Assembly: GCF_033115175.1 (NCBI RefSeq)
Contig: NC_084827.1
Span: 144,701,701-144,765,700, forward strand
Direction: 5' to 3'
DNA from: Lepus europaeus
Lineage: Eukaryota > Chordata > Mammalia > Lagomorpha > Leporidae
Length of the DNA stretch: 64,000 nucleotides
The notes beneath the pieces are model-generated. The model did not search any database. It was not told the DNA's origin and was given only the letters and a program-made list of their open reading frames with translations. Shown here piece after piece: positions 19,622 to 63,816 of the stretch. The translations under genes and the position numbers were made by a program. The first letter of the stretch is position 1. Each line of letters opens with the position of its first letter.

Positions 19622-22600
19622 ATCCACTCTGCCTGTCAAAAAAAAAAAAAAAAAAAAAAAAAGAAAGAAAAAGAAAGGTGAGAAATTGAGGTTCAGAGAC
19701 AGAAACAGAAGTCCATGGTTAGATCAAATGACTCGCTGCAGGGACTTGCGTTGTGGTGCAGTGCGTTAGGCTGCCTGCAATTGTAGCATCTCATATGGGC
19801 ACAAGTTTGAGTCCTGGCTGCTCTGTTTGGGATCCAACTGTCAATGCTCCTGGGAAAGCAGTAGAAAATGGCCCAAGTACTTGGGTCTCTGCCACCCACA
19901 GGGGAGATCAGATGGAGTTCCAGGCTCCTGGCTTTGGCCTGGAGCAGCCCTGGCCATTGTGTCCATTTGGGGAATGAACCAGTGGATGGTTCGTTCTCTC
20001 TCTCTCTCTAGCTCTGCCTTTCAAATAAATAAATAAAGCTTAAAAAACAAGCAATTTATGGTAGCTAGTTTCCAAAGAAAATGGATGGCAGATGTGGGAT
20101 TTTACTTTGATCCAACCCCAAACACCCTATGCTGCCAAACAGGAGTGACTGCTTATAATGTATTAATTTCAGAAACTTAAGTACCGGGCTGGCTCTGTGG
20201 CATATAGAGGGTAGAGCTGCACCTGCAGTGCCGGCATCCCATATGGGCACTGGTTCGAGTCCTGGCTGCTCCACTTCCAATCCAGCTCCCTACTATGGCC
20301 TGGGAAAGCAGTAGAAGATGGCCCAGGTCCTTGGGCCCCTGCACCTGTGTGGGAGACCAGGAAGAAGCACCTGGCTCCTGACTTCAGATCAGTCCAGCTC
20401 TGGCCATTGTGGCCATTTGGGGAGTGAACTAGCGGATAGAAGAGCAGTCTCTCTCTGCCTCTGTAACTCTGCCTTTCAAATAAATAAATAAATCTTAACA
20501 AAAAAGAAAAGAAACCTAAGTGCTTAATATTAGGATTTTGGCTCCAAAGTTTGTTATTTCACTTTTCAGGAGAGGCTCTTTGAGGATAAATATGCCCATT
20601 TCATTTAAACAAGTATGCCCAATTCATACCCCTTACCTGCCGCTGAGAACATAGAGTCGGGGATCACCTGCCTATGTCTCACTGTTGTCCTAAGACCTGG
20701 AGGATCTTTGTTTACCCAAAAGCATTGTGGCAGCCTAGAGTTGCACCGTTAGTATGAGTACTCTTCAGTGGCTTGTGGGTTTGCGCAGCCACATCCAAAG
20801 GAATAATCTGCCTGTCCGGGATTAGCTGTATGGTGCCAAAGAATGTTCTGTTGGCCTATATTAAAACCTGGTGGTTGGGGCCGGCGTGGTGGCTCAGTAG
20901 GTTAATGCTCCGCCTGCGGCTCCGACATCCCTTATGGGCACCGGTTCTAGTCCCAGCTGCTCCTCTTCCTGTCCAGCTCTCTGCTGTGGCCCAGGAGTGC
21001 AGTGGAGGATGGCCCAGGTCCCTGGGCCCCTGCACCTGCATGGGAGACCAGGAGGAAGCCCCTGGCTCCTGGCTTCAGATCGGCGCAGCTCTGGCCGTTG
21101 CGGCCATTTGGGGAGTGAACCAATGGAAGGAAGACCTTTCTCTCTGTTTCTCTCTCTCACTGTCTATAACTCTACCTGTCAAATAAATAAAATATCAAAA
21201 AAACAAAAAACAAAGCCTGGTGGTGGTGTTTCTAATTAAGTGAGCACAGTTTTATTACACTGGTGGTGGCACCCAGAGTGAGATGTGTATTCCGGATTCT
21301 TGGTACAAGTTACAATAGTAAAATGGAAGGGAATTTAAAGCACTGCTCTCATTTCCTTTGTCTTCAAGAGTCACGTGTCGAAGTTGTGGCCCTGTGTGCT
21401 GGCTCTGGGAGCAGCGTCCTGCGGGGTGTCGAAGCCGACCTTTACCTGACAGGTAGGACAGCTTTTGGGTCTGTTCTTTCTCAATGCTGGCTTGTTTTTT
21501 AGAAATTCAAAAATAGCAGATGTTAGGATAGTGCCTAGCACATAGATAGTATCTTTTTTTTTTTAATTTTTTTAAAATTTATTTGAAAGAGTTACAGAGA
21601 GAGAGAGAGAGATCTTCCATCCGATGGTTCACTCCCCAGATGGCTGCAACGGCTGGAGCTGCGCCAGTCTGAACCCAGGAGCCAGGAGCTTCCTCCTGGT
21701 CTCCCATGCAGGTGCAGGGGCCCAAGGACTTGGACCATCCTCCACTGCTATCCCAGGCCATAGCAGAGAGCTGGACGGGAAGAGGAGCAGCCGGGACTAG
21801 AACCAGTGCCCATATGGGATGCCGGCGCTTCAGGCCAGGGTGTTAACCTGCTGTGCTACAGCGCAGGTCCCAGATGGTATCTTTTTTTTTTTTTTTTCGA
21901 CAGGCAGAGTGGACAGTGAGAGAGAGAGACAGAGAGATAGATCTTCCTTTTACCATTGGTTCACCCTCCAGTGGCCTGATCTGAAGCCAGGAGCCAGGTG
22001 CTTCTCCTGGTCTCCCATGTGGGTGCAGGGCCCAAGGACTTGGGCCATCCTCCACTGCACTCCGGGCCACAGCAGAGAGCTGGCCTGGAAGAGGGGCAAC
22101 CGGGACAGAATCCGGCACCCTGACTGGGACTAGAACCCGGTGTGCCGGAGCCACAAGGCGAAGGATTAGCCTATTGAGCCTCGGCCCCTGCCCCCAGATA
22201 GTATCTTAATACCTTCTTAACCTTAACTGATAGGAAGTAGACCAGAATTGGGGACACATTGTATTCACTGTGGAGAGAGGAAATCATTTAACAATTTATT
22301 ATTAGATTACCTCAAAAAGTTATGTTCACTTGCCATGGGGACTCCATATCCCATGAAGTTGGCAGGTACCAATGCCATCTTACTAGTTAAAGTGATCAGT
22401 TTAAGTTCATAACTGATCATAAAGATAGGGTTAAATGTCAAAGGGATCACATAAATAAGACCAAGTGTCTGCTAATAATAATTGATAGAATTAAAAAGGA
22501 GAAAATGATCCAACATGGGAAGCATGCCATACAGCAGACTCATAGAATGACAAATGCCCTAAACAGCACTCTGGCTCAGAATCAGCCCTTAAGGCATTCA

Positions 22601-25600
22601 GATCTGGCTAAAAGGCCCATGAGAGCATTTCAGGCATGGAAAGCCAAGACACTGTGGCAAAAAATGGCCTACATGAAAGATCTCTGTGAGTGAGATCCCA
22701 GTGGAAAGAAGGGGTCATCAAAGAAGGAGGTACCTTTCTCTGAAGGGAGGAGAGAACTTCCCCTTTGATTATGACCCTGTCTAAATATTGATGGAGTTTG
22801 TGGACTCGAGAGGTTTCCATAACCTTGGCAGCTCATGACAAGAGCCTCAGGTGATCACTGACATCATAAATAAATAAGAGTGTCAATTGTTAAATCAACA
22901 ACAGGAGTCCCTGGGCACTTGCTCCCCATGTAGGACCTCTGTCCTTAATGTGTTGTACTATGAGAATTATTGGTAAAATTAGTCTTCAAACAGAACATTA
23001 TACTTTGTATGTCTGTGTGGGTGCAAACTGTAGAAATCTTTACTTAGTATAGGATTGATCTTCTGTATATAAATATAATTAAAATCTTAATGAAGAATGT
23101 GATGGGAGAGGGTGTAGGAGGTGGGATAGGGGTTGAGCCGGCGCCGCGGCTCACTAGGCTAATCCTCCGCCTTGCGGTGCCGGCACACCGGGTTCTAGTC
23201 CTGGTCGGGGCACCGATCCTGTCCCGGTTGCCCCTCTTCCAGGCCAGCTCTCTGCTGTGGCCAGGGAGTGCAGTGGAAGATGGCCCAAGTGCTTGGGCCC
23301 TGCACCCCATGGGAGACCAGGAGAAGCACCTGGCTCCTGCCATCGGAACAGCGCGGTGCGCCGGCCGCAGCACGCCAACCGCGGCGGCCATTGGAGGGTG
23401 AACCAACGGCAAAAAGGAAGACCTTTCTCTATGTCTCCCTCTACTGTCCACTCTGCCTGTCAAAAAACAAACAAACAAACAAAACAAAACAAAACAAAAC
23501 AAAAAAGGAGGTGGGATGGTTTGGGGGTGGAAGGGCGGATGTGGGGGGAAGAACCGCTATAATCCAAAAGTTATACTTATGAAATTTATATTTATTAAAT
23601 AAAAGCTTTCTATAAAATAAAGTTATGCTCATGGGTGGGCATTTAGCCTAGATTCAAAACTGCTTGAGACCTGTATGCCATATTGGAGTTCCTGGGTTTG
23701 ATGCACAGCTCTGCTCCTTATTCCAGCGTCCTGCTAATGTGGACCTTGGGAAGAGGCAGTGGTGATGACTCAGGTAGTTAGGTCCCTGCCACTGGTGGGA
23801 GATCTAGATTGAGTTCCTAGCTTCAGCCCAGCCTGGCCCTAACCATTGCAGGAATTTGGGGGAGTGGATGGGAACTTGCTCTCTCTACCTCTTGAATTAA
23901 AAAAAAAATGTACTTTTCTGACTTCCAGGACCAGCCTCTACAGCCTTGACCCTCTGGCTGTTCCCTTGGCCACTTCCATGCCTCCACTGCCTCACACCCC
24001 CATGCCTTACTTTTTAGCACACCCTGTTACTGAGGCTACTTCACAAAGTACTGAGCTTTGCCATCTGAGCAAGCCTCGTGTAATTGCTCTGAACTGATAC
24101 ACTGAAAGCATGCATAACCATTAGCTATTTTCTGTTCTTTTGAAGATAGGAGATTTGTATAAGCCTTCAAATTTGTACCAGATTGAAATAAACTTTCAAT
24201 ATATAGGCAGTTTGAGTATCTTCCAGCTTGGTGTGTAGCTATTTTTAAATCAATTTTAATATTTTACTTAGAATTTTAGGTGCTAGAAAATCTCCAAGAG
24301 TAGATTACTTAGATTACTGATGGCTTTATTGTGCCACATTGGTACATTGTGTGTGCATATGTGTACATACTCATATACATATGTCACATATACATTAAAG
24401 TACATGCGGTATATATAATACATATATTTGTGTTCCCTGGAACCATTTGGGAATAAGTTGCAGATACGACCTTTTACACCTCCACATAGTATGTGCTCTC
24501 CTGAGAATGACACGTTGTCTTACATGGCCACAGAACAATGGTCAGATTTGGAAGTTTAGTACTATTAAGCACTTACTTGATATTCAACTGATCAGGAGTT
24601 AACAGCATTTCCTTCTGATCCACGTCCAATCTTAACCACACTCCACATTTGGTTGTTTCTCTTTAGTGTCCTGCAGTCTGGAATGGGATAGTTCCTCAGG
24701 ATTGCCTTCATAGCATTGACATTTTTGAAGCACATCACTCATTTGCCTTGTGGTTTTCTCAATTTGGGGTGTCTATTTTTATAAAGGGAAATGAGCTTAA
24801 GATAATTGCTAGCAGTTCTAAAATGTTAAATGCCATTCCCGTCTGGCTAGATGGAGAAATAGCAGATGTGGGCCCCGGCTAACTTCCGGGAAGCCCTGGC
24901 ATGGGCTGCCTTCCTCCCTCCTCTGGGGAGCCTCAGGCTGGGCTCCCCGGGTCTGCGGTCGTTAAGGGTGAAGTCCTGGAAGACAGTACATGAGGCGCTC
25001 ACTCCTTACAGACCAGTTTGCTCTCCCTGTCCTCATTTGCTCTCCATCTGCTTCTGTGCTGAGCTGGGCTTTTCTCTCCTTGGCGTCTGTTGTTGCAGGG
25101 TCTCCACTGGTTTCCCCACTTCCCTGCCTCTGCAGACAGTGCGTTTACGAGACAGGCAGCCAGGCTTGTCTTTCCTAAGGGGTACCTTAGTGTCTTTTTT
25201 GCATTTTCCCTAAACGCTTTCACATAAGATGAGATCTTTTCAATCAGTAACTTCAGAATTTTCTAGGGATTTTATATAAGTCAACTCATTCCACCCTTAT
25301 CAATTGGACTGGGATCAGTGCTGAAGATACAGATGCTCACAAAGCATAAGGTTTCCGGGCAGAATACCTAAGGTGTTCTTTTAAGGTATTTGCTACTGAT
25401 AGAAAAATGCGGCTTTCTGTAGCCATCTTGCAGAGTAGTGGTCATTTATTGTGGAAATCTCGAAGGAGTGTTCTTATAGATCTGGTCTGGGCTGGATGCG
25501 CAGAATTAGATACTTTCCTAGGGTCTGCCAAGAATTCTTGATGGGATGGCGTCTCTTGAAATTGGAAGGTATGTAAGAAAATTGTGCACAACTCCCCACA

Positions 25601-25913
25601 TCTCTGTAAAGTAGTGCTGCCGAATCACACGTCCTTGGTGCAGAATTCAAACTCGGCATTTCTGCTGCTGTGACTCAGCATTCCACAGGTTCCTAGTATT
25701 CAAGTCTTTGTTCTTGGTTTTTTGGCAGGTGAGATGTCCCATCATGATGTCCTGGACGCTACTTCCCGAGGAACCAGTGTCGTCCTCTGTGAACACAGTA
25801 ACACGGAACGAGGCTTCCTTTCTGACCTCCGTGATATGCTGGGTGCCCACTTGGAGAACAGGATTCATATTGTCCTGTCAGAGGCGGACAGGGATCCTCT
25901 TTGTGTGGTGTAA
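9493..25913 (+). CDS. NIF3L1: NIF3L1, NIF3-like protein 1 (complete CDS, six coding exons)
   Basis: Coding segments 9493-9928, 13199-13361, 15988-16114, 17689-17827, 21369-21452 and 25729-25913 total 1134 bases: 377 residues plus TAA, the same length as human NIF3L1. All junctions are GT-AG and phases close perfectly. Family knowledge: NIF3/DUF34 proteins (bacterial YbgI) form toroidal oligomers with a di-metal site of unsettled reaction; NIF3L1 is reported to bind COPS2/Trip15. Likely metal ligands by family alignment are His93 (SYHPP), Asp131 (SPHTAYD), His339 and Glu343 (CEHSNTERG); the conserved GEMSHHD is also intact. The Arg/Ser-rich, acid-free first ~27 residues resemble a mitochondrial presequence (inference). 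The ATG at 9493 gives the family N-terminus MLSSC; an upstream in-frame TTG is not needed. Ancestral residues are intact, so the gene appears functional. Confidence 0.97.
9929..10365. other. NIF3L1 intron 2, unique stretch with (TG)n
   Basis: No element recognised apart from a (TG)9 run at about 10325-10343. Confidence 0.6.
10366..10720 (-). mobile_element. C-SINE, young GC-rich subfamily
   Basis: Full length inverted copy, target duplication TATTTTAATGAATCTTT before and from 10721. Confidence 0.95.
10930..11272 (+). mobile_element. C-SINE, young GC-rich subfamily, tail ends in (TA)n
   Basis: GGGCCAGTGCCGTGGCTC head to CTGCCTGTTAAAAA; followed by a (TA)n run to about 11291. TA-rich target makes the duplication imprecise. 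Confidence 0.9.
11292..11610 (-). repeat. Old C-SINE, inverted
   Basis: TTTATTTATTTAAAAGGCAGAATG to AGCTTAACTTGCCAGCTCCG. Confidence 0.8.
11676..11994 (-). repeat. Old C-SINE, inverted
   Basis: AAAGATTTATTTATTTGAAAG to TATACCACAGCGCCAGCCCC. Confidence 0.85.
12105..13105 (+). repeat. Three-level nested C-SINE stack
   Basis: An old plus-strand C-SINE (12105-12260 and 12985-13105) is split by an inverted copy (12261-12322 and 12656-12975). That copy is split in turn by a younger plus-strand copy (12323-12655) with target duplication GAAAGAGTTACA. Confidence 0.8.
13199..13361 (+). CDS. NIF3L1: NIF3L1 exon 3 (ACTSRPI...SVTSFSA)
   Basis: 163 bases between acceptor TCTCTCTAG and donor GTAAAT. It encodes the start of the inter-metal-site insert typical of longer NIF3 proteins and ends two bases into an Arg codon. 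Confidence 0.95.
13362..13792. other. NIF3L1 intron 3, unrecognised sequence
   Basis: No repeat or exon identified. 13608-13643 shares a 35-base motif with 15124-15159. Confidence 0.5.
13793..14100 (+). repeat. Old C-SINE
   Basis: GGTGGGCATTTGGTGGAGATG head, (CT)n at 14043-14071, CTTTCATATTAAATAAATAA tail. Confidence 0.8.
14101..14459. other. NIF3L1 intron 3, AT-rich unrecognised sequence
   Basis: No exon, splice pair or known element seen. Confidence 0.5.
14460..14763 (-). repeat. Old C-SINE, inverted
   Basis: AAAGATTTATTTTATTTATTC to CTACTATGCCACAGCCAGCCCC. Confidence 0.82.
14764..15619. repeat. Ancient repeat debris including a MER5-like segment (about 15345-15525)
   Basis: 15345-15525 resembles MER5 hAT elements (GCATCACTCGGAACTCATTAG ... 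GGGTGATTCTGATGTAATG ... TTTGAGAAACAC). The left part has a long plus-strand open frame continuing from the adjacent SINE, but no recognisable protein. Confidence 0.5.
15620..15930 (-). repeat. Old C-SINE, inverted
   Basis: TTTATTTAAAAGGTAGAATTAC to CTGAGTCACAATGGCAGCCC; ends about 58 bases before NIF3L1 exon 4. Confidence 0.82.
15988..16114 (+). CDS. NIF3L1: NIF3L1 exon 4 (TDGEEQTRISLNC...EILSLEK)
   Basis: 127 bases, acceptor ATTTTCTAG and donor GTAAAA; ends in phase 0 at residue 242. An old inverted C-SINE ends about 60 bases upstream of the acceptor. Confidence 0.95.
16115..16725. other. NIF3L1 intron 4, unrecognised sequence
   Basis: No exon or element assigned; pyrimidine-rich towards 16600-16720. 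Confidence 0.4.
16730..17590 (+). repeat. L2-like LINE 3' part split by an inverted C-SINE (17090-17397)
   Basis: Left and right parts resemble the L2 3' region (CCATGCCCCTGCCACCTTTG; GAGGCTGTGAGCCCCTGGAA). The C-SINE runs from AAGATTTATTTATATATTTG to ATGCCACAATGTTGGCCCCC. Confidence 0.6.
17689..17827 (+). CDS. NIF3L1: NIF3L1 exon 5 (PLLLHTGMGRLCTLDE...)
   Basis: 139 bases, acceptor TTCTCTTCAG and donor GTAAAT. It contains the conserved G-x-G-R family block and ends one base into a Glu codon. Confidence 0.95.
17920..18132 (-). repeat. Old C-SINE, inverted, internally shortened
   Basis: Poly(T), GAAAGGCCAAGTGACACAG, then CCACTGCCGCAATGCCTGCCCC. Confidence 0.75.
18384..18535. repeat. Chimeric C-SINE fragment
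   Basis: Starts like a plus-strand C-SINE head (GCATTTAACCTAATGGTTGAG) but ends like an inverted head (TTAGCCCTCTGACACGC). Probably two fused fragments. Confidence 0.45.
18580..19182 (+). repeat. Old C-SINE split by an inverted C-SINE (18815-19125)
   Basis: The plus copy breaks at GGTAATTT and resumes after the inverted copy with the same GGTAATTT, ending in a 17-A tail. The inner copy ends TCACAGTGCTGGCCCC. Confidence 0.8.
19321..19672 (+). mobile_element. C-SINE, young GC-rich subfamily
   Basis: 16-base target duplication GAAAGGTGAGAAATTG at 19305-19320 and about 19673-19688, identical on both sides; A-rich tail of about 40 bases. Confidence 0.96.
19739..20050 (+). repeat. Old C-SINE
   Basis: GGGACTTGCGTTGTGGTGCAG head to TTTCAAATAAATAAATAAAGC tail. 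Confidence 0.85.
20186..20515 (+). repeat. C-SINE, intermediate age
   Basis: GGGCTGGCTCTGTGGCATATAG head, GGTTCGAGTCC box, AAATAAATAAATAAATCTTAAC tail. Confidence 0.86.
20516..20877. other. NIF3L1 intron 5, unrecognised sequence
   Basis: No exon or named element seen. Confidence 0.5.
20878..21208 (+). mobile_element. C-SINE, intermediate subfamily
   Basis: GGGGCCGGCGTGGTGGCTCAG head; target duplication close to AAACCTGGTGGT on the left and AAGCCTGGTGGT on the right. Ends about 160 bases before NIF3L1 exon 6. Confidence 0.88.
21369..21452 (+). CDS. NIF3L1: NIF3L1 exon 6 (SRVEVVALCAGSGSS...)
   Basis: 84 bases, acceptor TTGTCTTCAAG and donor GTAGGA. It encodes the VALCAGSGSS turn and VEADLYLTG strand of the C-terminal NIF3 domain. 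Confidence 0.95.
21548..22195 (-). mobile_element. Two inverted C-SINEs integrated at one target (21553-21870, 21883-22194)
   Basis: An older copy and a young GC-rich copy lie back to back. The target AGAT(A/G)GTATCTT appears three times: 21544, 21872 and 22196. Confidence 0.85.
22329..23618 (+). mobile_element. L1 3' end (rabbit-type), 5'-truncated, split by a young C-SINE
   Basis: About 0.9 kb of L1 3' UTR in sense to NIF3L1 intron 6, sharing long stretches with 54629-55250 (for example GGAAAGCCAAGACACTGTGG and TCAATTGTTAAATCAACAAC). It has a G-rich tract near its 3' end and terminates TATTTATTAAATAAAAGC. Target duplication AAAGTTATG(T/C)TCA flanks it at about 22316 and 23619. The C-SINE at 23136-23505 interrupts the G-rich tract. 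Confidence 0.85.
23136..23505 (+). mobile_element. C-SINE, young GC-rich subfamily, inside the L1
   Basis: GAGCCGGCGCCGCGGCTCAC head; tail of (CAAA)n and (CAAAA)n units; target duplication GGAGGTGGGAT. Confidence 0.93.
23628..23912 (+). repeat. Old divergent C-SINE
   Basis: GGTGGGCATTTAGCCTAGATTC head to CTCTCTCTACCTCTTGAATTAAAAA. Confidence 0.72.
23913..24290. other. NIF3L1 intron 6, probably ancient LINE debris
   Basis: 23930-24080 is pyrimidine-rich and vaguely L2-like (CTTGGCCACTTCCATGCC); not firmly assigned. Confidence 0.35.
24291..24830 (+). repeat. Ancient L1M-like 3' end
   Basis: Contains text recalled from old L1 3' regions: GGAACCATTTGGGAATAAGTTGCAG, CATTGACATTTTTGAAGCAC and TCTCAATTTGGGGTGTCT (each a partial match). 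A purine/pyrimidine TA- and TG-rich stretch lies at 24345-24430. Bases 24674-24816 have an inverted near-copy at 26566-26708. Confidence 0.55.
24831..25728. other. NIF3L1 intron 6, unique sequence before the last exon
   Basis: No repeat or exon recognised. Long open frames near 24866-25213 have no recognisable protein and follow local GC content. Confidence 0.45.
25729..25913 (+). CDS. NIF3L1: NIF3L1 exon 7, coding part (GEMSHHD...LCVV stop)
   Basis: 185 coding bases from acceptor TTTTTGGCAG to TAA at 25911-25913. It carries the C-terminal metal ligands His339 and Glu343. The exon lies between the two arms of a 143-base inverted repeat (24674-24816 and 26566-26708). Confidence 0.96.
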
Positions 25914-26384
25914 GGCGTGCAGGGACACCAAGATGACACAGTCTGCAGATTGCATCTCAACTCAGATGTGCAACGTGAGTCAGTGGAGTCGATCTGTCTG
26001 TCTGAAAGAGCCTCTTAAGATACATGGGGAAGCTTCAAAAAGTTCATGGAAATGTGTATTTTGAGAAAACTGCATAGATTTCAAAAACATTTTCACAAAA
26101 TAGACAACTTTTAATTCCATTTTCTGCAGACTTTTTGAACTGCCCGCATTATTATCTTTTCCAGTTTATCTGGTTCAACAAATGTTCTATAGTTTATAAG
26201 GAAAAAACTTAACTACCATAACGAAGAACAAATATTAAGAAAGATCAACTAAAATTGGTTTACTTAACATTCTTGGGAAGTAACCAAATAATTTTCCCCT
26301 TAGTTTCATTAGAGTTGGGAAATGTTAATCTGGGTATCTCTGCCATTGGTTAGTTTTAAAATGTCCTCTAAAAACTTGGGATTG
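25914..26384 (+). other. NIF3L1: NIF3L1 3' UTR region without a canonical poly(A) signal
   Basis: Follows the stop codon. By eye there is no AATAAA or ATTAAA up to the C-SINE at 26385. The region includes a degenerate mariner-like inverted-repeat element at about 26026-26150. The first AATAAA downstream is at 26791, in that C-SINE's tail. Confidence 0.55.
26026..26150 (+). mobile_element. Short mariner-like inverted-repeat element, copy 2 (NIF3L1 3' UTR)
   Basis: Ends AGCTTCAAAAAGTTCATGGA and CAGACTTTTTGAACTGC are imperfect inverted repeats; the interior matches copies at 1690 and 57488. It starts about 113 bases after the NIF3L1 stop codon. Confidence 0.6.
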
Positions 26385-26815
26385 AGGGGCCAGTGCTGCG
26401 GTGCAGCGGGTTAACGCCCTGGCCTGAAGTGCCAGTGTCCCATATGGGCACCGGTTCTAGTCCCGGCTACTCCACTTCTGATCCAGCTCCCTGCTATGGC
26501 CTGGGAAAGCAGTAGAAGATGGCCCAGGTCCTTGGGCCTCTCACTTGCATGGGAGACTCAGACTAACTGCTAGCAATTATCTTAGGCTCATTTCCCTTTA
26601 TAAAAATAGATACCCCAAATTGAGAAAACCACAAGGCAAATGGCTGATATACTTCAAAAATGTCAATGCTATGAAGACAATCCTGAGGAACTATCCCATT
26701 CCAGACTGTGCATCTCTGGCCATTGTGGCCAACTGGGAAGTGAACCATCAGATGGAAGACCTCTTTCTCTCTGTGTAACTCTTTCAAGTAAATAAATCTT
26801 AAAAAAAAAAAAAAA
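26385..26815 (+). repeat. C-SINE whose middle is replaced by a 143-base inverted copy of intron 6
   Basis: Left SINE part 26385-26560 and right part 26709-26815 are flanked by target duplication ACTTGGGATTGA / CCTTGGGATTGA. The expected SINE text after GGGAGAC (about 40 bases) is missing; in its place, 26566-26708 is the reverse complement of 24674-24816 with 7 mismatches. The tail holds AATAAA at 26791-26796. Confidence 0.9.
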
Positions 26816-27039
26816 AAAAAACCTTGGGATTGAACACCTATTTTTAGGCAGAAGCCTCTTTGGGATGATGTGGTCTGTCTCTGTCCATGTTCTGTAGATC
26901 CACCTAAATTGTAGTCTCACCTCAGTTTCAATTTTTGATTATTTTTAACAGATTCAGCATGATTTGTAGGTACAATTCTAAGAATATACTGATAGGTGAC
27001 TTACCTATAATTTTATTAGTGACGTAAAGATGTTTAGTC

Positions 27040-27625
27040 CTTAAAATAATACACCATTAATTTTTTTTTTTTTTTAATTTTTGACAGGCAGAGTGGACAG
27101 TGAGAGAGAGACAGAGAGAAAGGTCTTCCTTTTGCCGTTGGTTCACCCTCCAGTGGCCGCCACGGTAGGCGCGCTGCAGCCGGCGCACCGCGCTGATCCG
27201 ATGGCAGGAGCCAGGTGCTTCTCCTGGTCTCCCATGCAGGTGCAGGGCCCAAGGACTTGGGCCATCCTCCACTGCACTCCCTGGCCACAGCAGAGAGCTG
27301 GCCTGGAAGAGGGGCAACTGGGACAGGATCGGTGCCCCAACCGGGACTAGAACCTGGTGTGCCGGCGCCGCAAGGCGGAGGATTAGCCTAGTGAGCCGCG
27401 GTGCTGGCTAATACACCATTAATTTTTATCAGGTACTTACCGGATGCTTCATAAACATTTAACACTTTCAGTCCTCATTAATAAGCATCTAGGTATTATT
27501 ATTCTAAGCATTTTATAGGTGAGGAGACAAGCAGATTAAGTAGTTTGCCCGAGGCCACATAGCTACGAATGATAGTTAACAATGCAAAGTCTGCCAGTCT
27601 TGCCCTAAAACCTATATACTTAACT
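27040..27625 (+). repeat. MIR SINE split by a young inverted C-SINE (27061-27409)
   Basis: The C-SINE has target duplication TAATACACCATTAATTTTT. The flanking MIR reads CTAAGCATTTTATAGGTGAGGAGAC ... GTTTGCCCGAGGCCACATAGC (partial matches). Confidence 0.8.

Positions 27626-32716: not shown

Positions 32717-63816
<31,100 letters not shown>

Follow-up and report, generated by a model that had tools for sequence, protein, structure and literature searches.

A 144-nucleotide inverted copy of intron sequence within an old C-SINE behind the terminal coding exon of NIF3L1 in the European hare: a probable fossil of templated insertion

The NIF3L1 locus and its inverted match

The window analyzed here is a stretch of 64,000 nucleotides from the genome of Lepus europaeus (contig NC_084827.1, positions 144,701,701 to 144,765,700), and all coordinates below refer to it. 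It contains the end of a gene that we take to be NIF3L1, following the name given in a preliminary description of this DNA. The last coding exon was placed on the forward strand at positions 25729–25913, with its start set by the splice acceptor. The open frame at 25674–25913 matched the Pfam profile PF01784 (DUF34_NIF3) with an E-value of 9.3e-11, and the match reached the end of the profile. Among the three frames of the window that were compared with Pfam, only the one of the last exon gave a match. A search of solved structures with this exon returned nothing at E ≤ 0.1. Farther downstream, the segment at 26033–26139, which begins with CTTCAAAAAGT and ends with ACTTTTTGAA, resembles a small DNA transposon bounded by terminal inverted repeats.

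The last intron and the sequence downstream of the exon share 144 nt in opposite orientations. By direct comparison within the window, positions 24674–24817 in the intron (forward strand; referred to as the source arm) equal the reverse complement of positions 26565–26708 (reverse strand; the copy) with seven mismatches and no gaps, and self-alignment of the window on opposite strands recovered the same two segments as an inverted pair. This small inverted patch of intron sequence within a SINE is thus a confirmed, genuine observation, and it is one base longer than the 143 bases with seven mismatches and no gaps that had been described initially. The two arms are separated by 1747 nt and, as had also been proposed, bracket the terminal coding exon. 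Their divergence amounts to 4.9% (7/144; 95% interval 2.0–9.8%). Since four of the seven mismatches are clustered in nine bases (24731–24739), the mismatches between the arms may represent fewer events; the cluster itself may have arisen by one multi-base change instead of four.

The interrupted C-SINE and the junctions of the insert

The copy breaks up an old SINE that extends approximately from 26386 to 26817 and presumably belongs to the C-SINEs, a name adopted from the preliminary description. With the 144 nt removed, this host element could be aligned over its full length with many SINEs of the window. Its 5′ part (26386–26562, forward strand) was aligned with 30 C-SINE segments of the window; with the SINE at 48952–49127 it shared 83.8% identity (179 alignment columns). 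The 3′ part including the A-rich tail (26709–26817, forward strand) shared 81.1% identity with the SINE at 21556–21662 (111 columns). Besides the tail, the element has retained a target-site duplication of 16 bp (left copy 26370–26385, right copy 26818–26833), the two copies of which agree at 15 of 16 bases; the first A bases of the right copy merge into the tail. The initial picture of a normal C-SINE with intact target duplications therefore stands as to the element and its duplications, whereas the bounds of 26385–26815 had to be shifted slightly.

C-SINE relatives served as the stand-in for the empty site. Alignment with these relatives revealed that about 30 SINE bases, and not about 40 as estimated before, are absent between the junctions, so that the net change consists of a swap of about 30 SINE bases for 144 nt plus approximately 2 nt of filler. 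Because the relatives have about 30 other bases at this site, the 144 nt are foreign to C-SINEs.

At the left junction (26560–26565, forward strand), the SINE sequence CTCAGA ends with AGA at 26562 and is followed by CTA at 26563–26565 and then by source sequence. The AGA could pair with source positions 24817–24819, which would leave a filler of 3 nt, and as the A at 26565 also equals position 24817, the filler comprises 2 or 3 nt. For a random fold-back position at this locus, an exact match of at least 3 nt has a probability of 0.018; with fillers permitted, the AGA microhomology is unremarkable. The 6-mer CAGACT is present at the left edge of the SINE and again at the distal end of the segment that was copied. 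On the right side, where short homology between the source flank and the SINE had been suspected, TGCA indeed occurs in both flanks, yet the product has two extra bases, which leaves this homology weak. Judged by their sequences, both junctions look like the products of end joining with little or no homology.

Uniqueness of the pair and direction of copying

The whole assembly (2.93 Gb in 649 contigs) was searched with the copy as query. The search yielded two candidates, both of which were scored: one was the query locus, and the other was the source arm, whose E-value of 1.9e-57 places the match far outside the range of chance. The best match besides the query thus fell on 24674–24817, where it had been expected, and many equally similar copies, which would have spoken for a dispersed repeat, did not appear among the matches in the assembly. 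A wider query around the source (24560–24960) returned the same two places alone. Very common words are passed over in this type of search, so that strongly diverged relatives can escape it, and some diverged relatives were later found by pattern. A young dispersed repeat is ruled out by the occurrence of the arms at only two places in the entire assembly.

The frequency of such pairs was assessed in a background sample of 264 kb, which combined the 64-kb window with 200 kb of contig C1, drawn as 20 pieces of 10 kb. Pairs had to reach a BLAST E-value ≤1e-6, span 50 bp or more with an identity of 85% or higher, and lie within 10 kb of each other; both orientations were allowed, and a complexity filter was applied. 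The pair described here was the sole pair in the 264 kb that satisfied these thresholds and had an arm unrepeated elsewhere in the sample. By the same BLAST criteria, the 200 kb outside the window contained no comparable pair; since the window was picked for this feature, the background says only that 0 such pairs occur in 200 kb of unselected sequence.

The source arm lies in the remnant of an old repeat. A first pattern designed for relatives of this repeat retrieved only the two arms from the assembly. Pattern searches of the assembly located fifteen motif-sharing places (4 + 13, two of them shared), and neither arm carries the patterns used. The profile derived from these 15 segments matched the window at 24645–24769 (E = 6.7e-7) and, on the other strand, at 26707–26613 (E = 2.5e-6). 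Not all members of the profile are independent, as two of them (L032 and L037) are 95–98% alike. Because the 15 places were selected by a shared motif, the core of the profile match is circular, but its extension to 24645 was not built in. At the source, the old repeat thus extends some 29 bases beyond the left boundary of the arm, whereas in the copy it ends at the junction with the SINE. Pairwise matches also pass the source edge, starting from 24659 with L037 (E = 0.002) and from 24652 with L031 (E = 0.039). The overrun of the repeat at the source edge, together with the interruption of the SINE at the copy, identifies the intron as the source and the SINE as the target, and on the evidence of these edges we regard the direction of copying from the intron to the SINE as shown. 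At its other end, the profile match stops at 24769 inside the arm, so that the right edge is uninformative with respect to direction.

The profile matches the source beyond the shared motif, and the 15 motif-sharing places thereby lend some support to the ancient L1M-like source proposed initially. An L1-type origin of the remnant is putative, and the name L1M is adopted from the preliminary description. Two of the motif-sharing segments displayed a rearrangement of their own. L032 (positions 1089–2148; contig C2) and L037 (positions 921–1930; contig C11) share identities of 94.6% (629 nt) and 98.0% (439 nt), and they differ by an inverted segment with an inverted duplicate of 31–34 bp at the joint. 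This arrangement resembles the 5′ inversions known from L1 insertions.

Order of SINE insertion and copying

The host SINE differed from the consensus of the window SINEs at 15.0% of 240 non-CpG sites. The other 30 segments in the window were 7.0 to 22.9% different from the consensus, and 13 of the 30 were above the host. Compared with the nearest of 24 sampled relatives, the host SINE differed by 17.9% (47/263). The contrast with the arms (7/144 versus 47/263) was significant with CpG sites included (Fisher's test; P = 1e-4), although the ratio of the ages is rough because CpG sites contribute to the 47/263 and the nearest relative could be a member of a different subfamily. Possible biases are gene conversion between the arms, which could shrink the arm figure and make the event appear too young, and subfamily differences, which could swell the SINE figure. 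The target duplications with their single mismatch in 16 bp are too short to help with dating. The far higher divergence of the host SINE than of the arms indicates that the copying most likely took place after the SINE had inserted, and the divergence data strongly indicate this order.

The same figures bear on the explanation that the insert is a chimera formed during retrotransposition, for which the reverse transcriptase would have left the SINE RNA for a nearby nucleic acid during the insertion of the SINE and then returned to it. The A-rich tail and the target duplications are kept, as would be expected from such an origin, and the 1/16 mismatch is compatible with a younger SINE. A chimera should, however, contain an insert as old as the element, and the arms differ by 4.9% as compared to 15–18% for the host. 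Moreover, two switches are required, and the first target-primed strand, which by inference is sense to NIF3L1, needs an antisense template, which the pre-mRNA is not. We consider this origin quite improbable, disfavored mainly by the SINE divergence that exceeds the divergence of the arms.

Polarization of the mismatches between the arms by means of the 15 motif-sharing segments gave little. At 24733, the base of the copy (T in 12 of 15 segments) is favored as ancestral. Position 24738, where 7 of 15 segments have G and one has a gap, weakly favors the copy, and position 24797, with T in 9 of 15, weakly favors the source. The counts were divided at 24705 (T 5, C 4) and 24739 (T 5, C 5), and at 24731 all 15 segments have an A that matches neither arm. 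The base of the copy at 24771 occurs in 12 of 15 segments, a count that is untrustworthy as the alignment is gapped there. From these comparisons, the mismatches that can be polarized appear to fall on both arms, with changes at 24733 and perhaps 24738 in the source and perhaps at 24797 in the copy. Although the evidence comes from one assembly, an assembly artefact or a young dispersed repeat is extremely improbable: the sequence matched at two places only in the assembly, and the arms differ at seven sites, of which 24733 favors a change in the source and 24797, more weakly, one in the copy. Taken together, the two-place match, the 264-kb background, the divergence of the SINE and the profile edges support the single local copying event that the preliminary description had postulated.

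Pairing potential around the last coding exon

The arms paired with each other in three of three minimum-energy folds of 2.3 to 5 kb, with 139 pairs in each, and according to these predictions they could pair around the last NIF3L1 coding exon. The region also harbors two inverted C-SINEs at 23136–23483 and 27061–27409, which are 92.6% identical over 350 nt and enclose the host SINE together with the last coding exon and a portion of the intron that precedes it. In the single fold that contained both of their arms, these elements formed 318 pairs (23137–23475 with 27069–27408), and the predicted duplex energy of the C-SINE pair was three times as strong as that of the arms reported here (−727 versus −239 kcal/mol). 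With this stronger pair enclosing it, the insert would augment rather than create the regional hairpin potential, provided that transcripts extend that far. The pre-mRNA hairpin conceived earlier is thus a prediction of the folds, its function being hypothetical, and as a new structure it was rejected, because the enclosing C-SINE pair also pairs, and more strongly. Recurrent inversion between the 144-bp arms is conjectural.

No AATAAA or ATTAAA was found between the stop codon (25913) and position 26791, and the signal at 26791, which is provided by the tail of the C-SINE, is the sole one within 900 bases past the stop of NIF3L1. Variant poly(A) hexamers occur earlier, for example at 26099, 26237, and 26248. 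The location of the first canonical signal makes the predicted transcription through the copy plausible, and the right arm may thus be transcribed. By itself, the insert says nothing new on NIF3L1.

Mechanism of the insertion

The insert has an identifiable template elsewhere that is still in place, this template is near (1747 nt), and the copy is inverted. Copying after the insertion of the SINE points to repair or to template switching during replication and not to an error of retrotransposition. We therefore interpret the patch as the fossil of a templated insertion that arose through repair or replication in a SINE already present at the site, a reading to which we assign a probability of about 0.82. 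This value covers the class of templated insertions that follow SINE insertion, and it is divided approximately evenly between a fold-back route and a fork route. Templated repair or template switching, which had already been named as the most likely cause, is supported by the direction of copying, by the divergence of the SINE in relation to the arms, and by the uniqueness of the pair.

In the fold-back route, a double-strand break would have struck the old C-SINE that follows the terminal coding exon of NIF3L1, with the loss of about 30 bases. The resected 3′ end left of the break could then have annealed through a short stretch of bases to its own strand approximately 1.75 kb upstream, and extension of this fold-back primer by 144 nt would have generated the inverted copy, after which the new strand would have been released and joined to the right end by end joining. 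The inverted orientation of the insert is predicted by fold-back priming. With TGCA at the right flank, priming from the right end is equally possible. We infer a break as the starting event, an intrastrand fold-back in preference to a fork switch or sister invasion, and the enzymes acting. The route presupposes about 1.9 kb of exposed single strand, which we assume, and findings on resection speak against a fold-back loop of this length: for mammalian break assays, resection of up to 1.3 kb is cited, with longer tracts likely missed (PMC3907307), and extensive resection suppresses foldback inversions in yeast (PMC11724301).

Long resection is unnecessary if a replication fork switched templates (FoSTeS/MMBIR). 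At a stalled fork, the nascent strand would have jumped to the opposite strand at a distance of about 1.9 kb, and after 144 nt of synthesis it would have gone back to its original template with about 30 bases skipped. Inverted nearby templates and short microhomology belong to the described signature of MMBIR templated insertions (PMC8421209), and the junctions here show little or no homology. The fork route calls for two switches as compared to one priming step plus end joining, and no sequence feature separates it from break-and-fold-back repair. It lies within the class that best explains the data, its product being identical, and the differences concern the initiating lesion and the template molecule. 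We deem fork switching a realistic candidate, at somewhat less than even odds.

A further alternative is a class 2 templated sequence insertion, for which intron RNA or cDNA would have served as the patch for the break. In the account of class 2 TSIPs (PMC5110952), such insertions are accompanied by a microdeletion, microhomology and added bases at the junctions, as may be the case here. The donors in the same account are described as distant regions, whereas donor and target in the hare are 1.75 kb apart at one locus. Because donor and target are neighbors, a mechanism at the DNA level accounts for the locality without coincidence, and a class 2 insertion is unlikely.

Within the preferred class of templated insertions, we tentatively suggest that the patch is the germline fossil of a fold-back repair that used a loop of about 1.75 kb and sealed a two-ended break on the spot; this more specific reading is possible, but we hold it with low confidence. 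If it is true, the fossil links the tiny local foldback insertions with loops of tens of bases to the large inverted duplications with kilobase loops and a lost chromosome end. It would also mean that many kilobase-loop fold-backs end harmlessly and persist as short inverted patches, which are missed by surveys limited to 100 bp.

Comparison with known systems

The insert is a new example of an already known kind of mutation, the templated insertion. Searches of the literature on this mutation type and on rabbit SINEs named neither NIF3L1 nor the locus. As the patch lies within a SINE of known structure, its edges, the lost bases and the sequence of events are legible in a single genome, which makes it an unusually readable case of an easily missed type of mutation. 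Unique sequence trapped in dispersed repeats may also offer a handle for counting such events genome-wide.

The MMB-TI survey of human germline and cancer genomes, which also found germline variants, sought templates at most 100 bp from the insertion (PMC8421209). The hare insert resembles these events as an inverted copy of a nearby template with putative short microhomology at a junction, but its template is about 1.75 kb away, beyond the 100 bp of that survey, and 144 nt long. Local templating in reverse orientation, which often leaves inverted repeats, is likewise shared with the template switch mutations of great apes (PMC7954356). Those are called short-range, and their copied length has a median of 12 and a maximum of 128, as opposed to 144 nt in the hare.

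Yeast foldbacks (PMC11724301) have in common with our reading of the hare insert the inverted copy, priming by a fold-back at microhomology and the joining to the other end, which in yeast is captured in an NHEJ-like manner with 0–5 bp of homology. The size of the insert also fits, since foldback insertions in yeast range from 2 to about 150 bp. Most of them are shorter than 14 bp, however, and the yeast foldback inversions had a 41-nt loop and an imperfect microhomology of 10 bp, in contrast to approximately 1.75 kb and 3 bp here. For human fold-back inverted duplications, loops of 766 to 70,466 bp and inverted microhomologies of 2–8 bp at 13 junctions are reported (PMC3907307), ranges that accommodate both the loop (about 1.75 kb) and the putative inverted microhomology (3 bp) of the hare insert. 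Unlike the human cases, which are large duplications after the loss of a chromosome end, the event in the hare copied 144 nt and the presumed break was closed.
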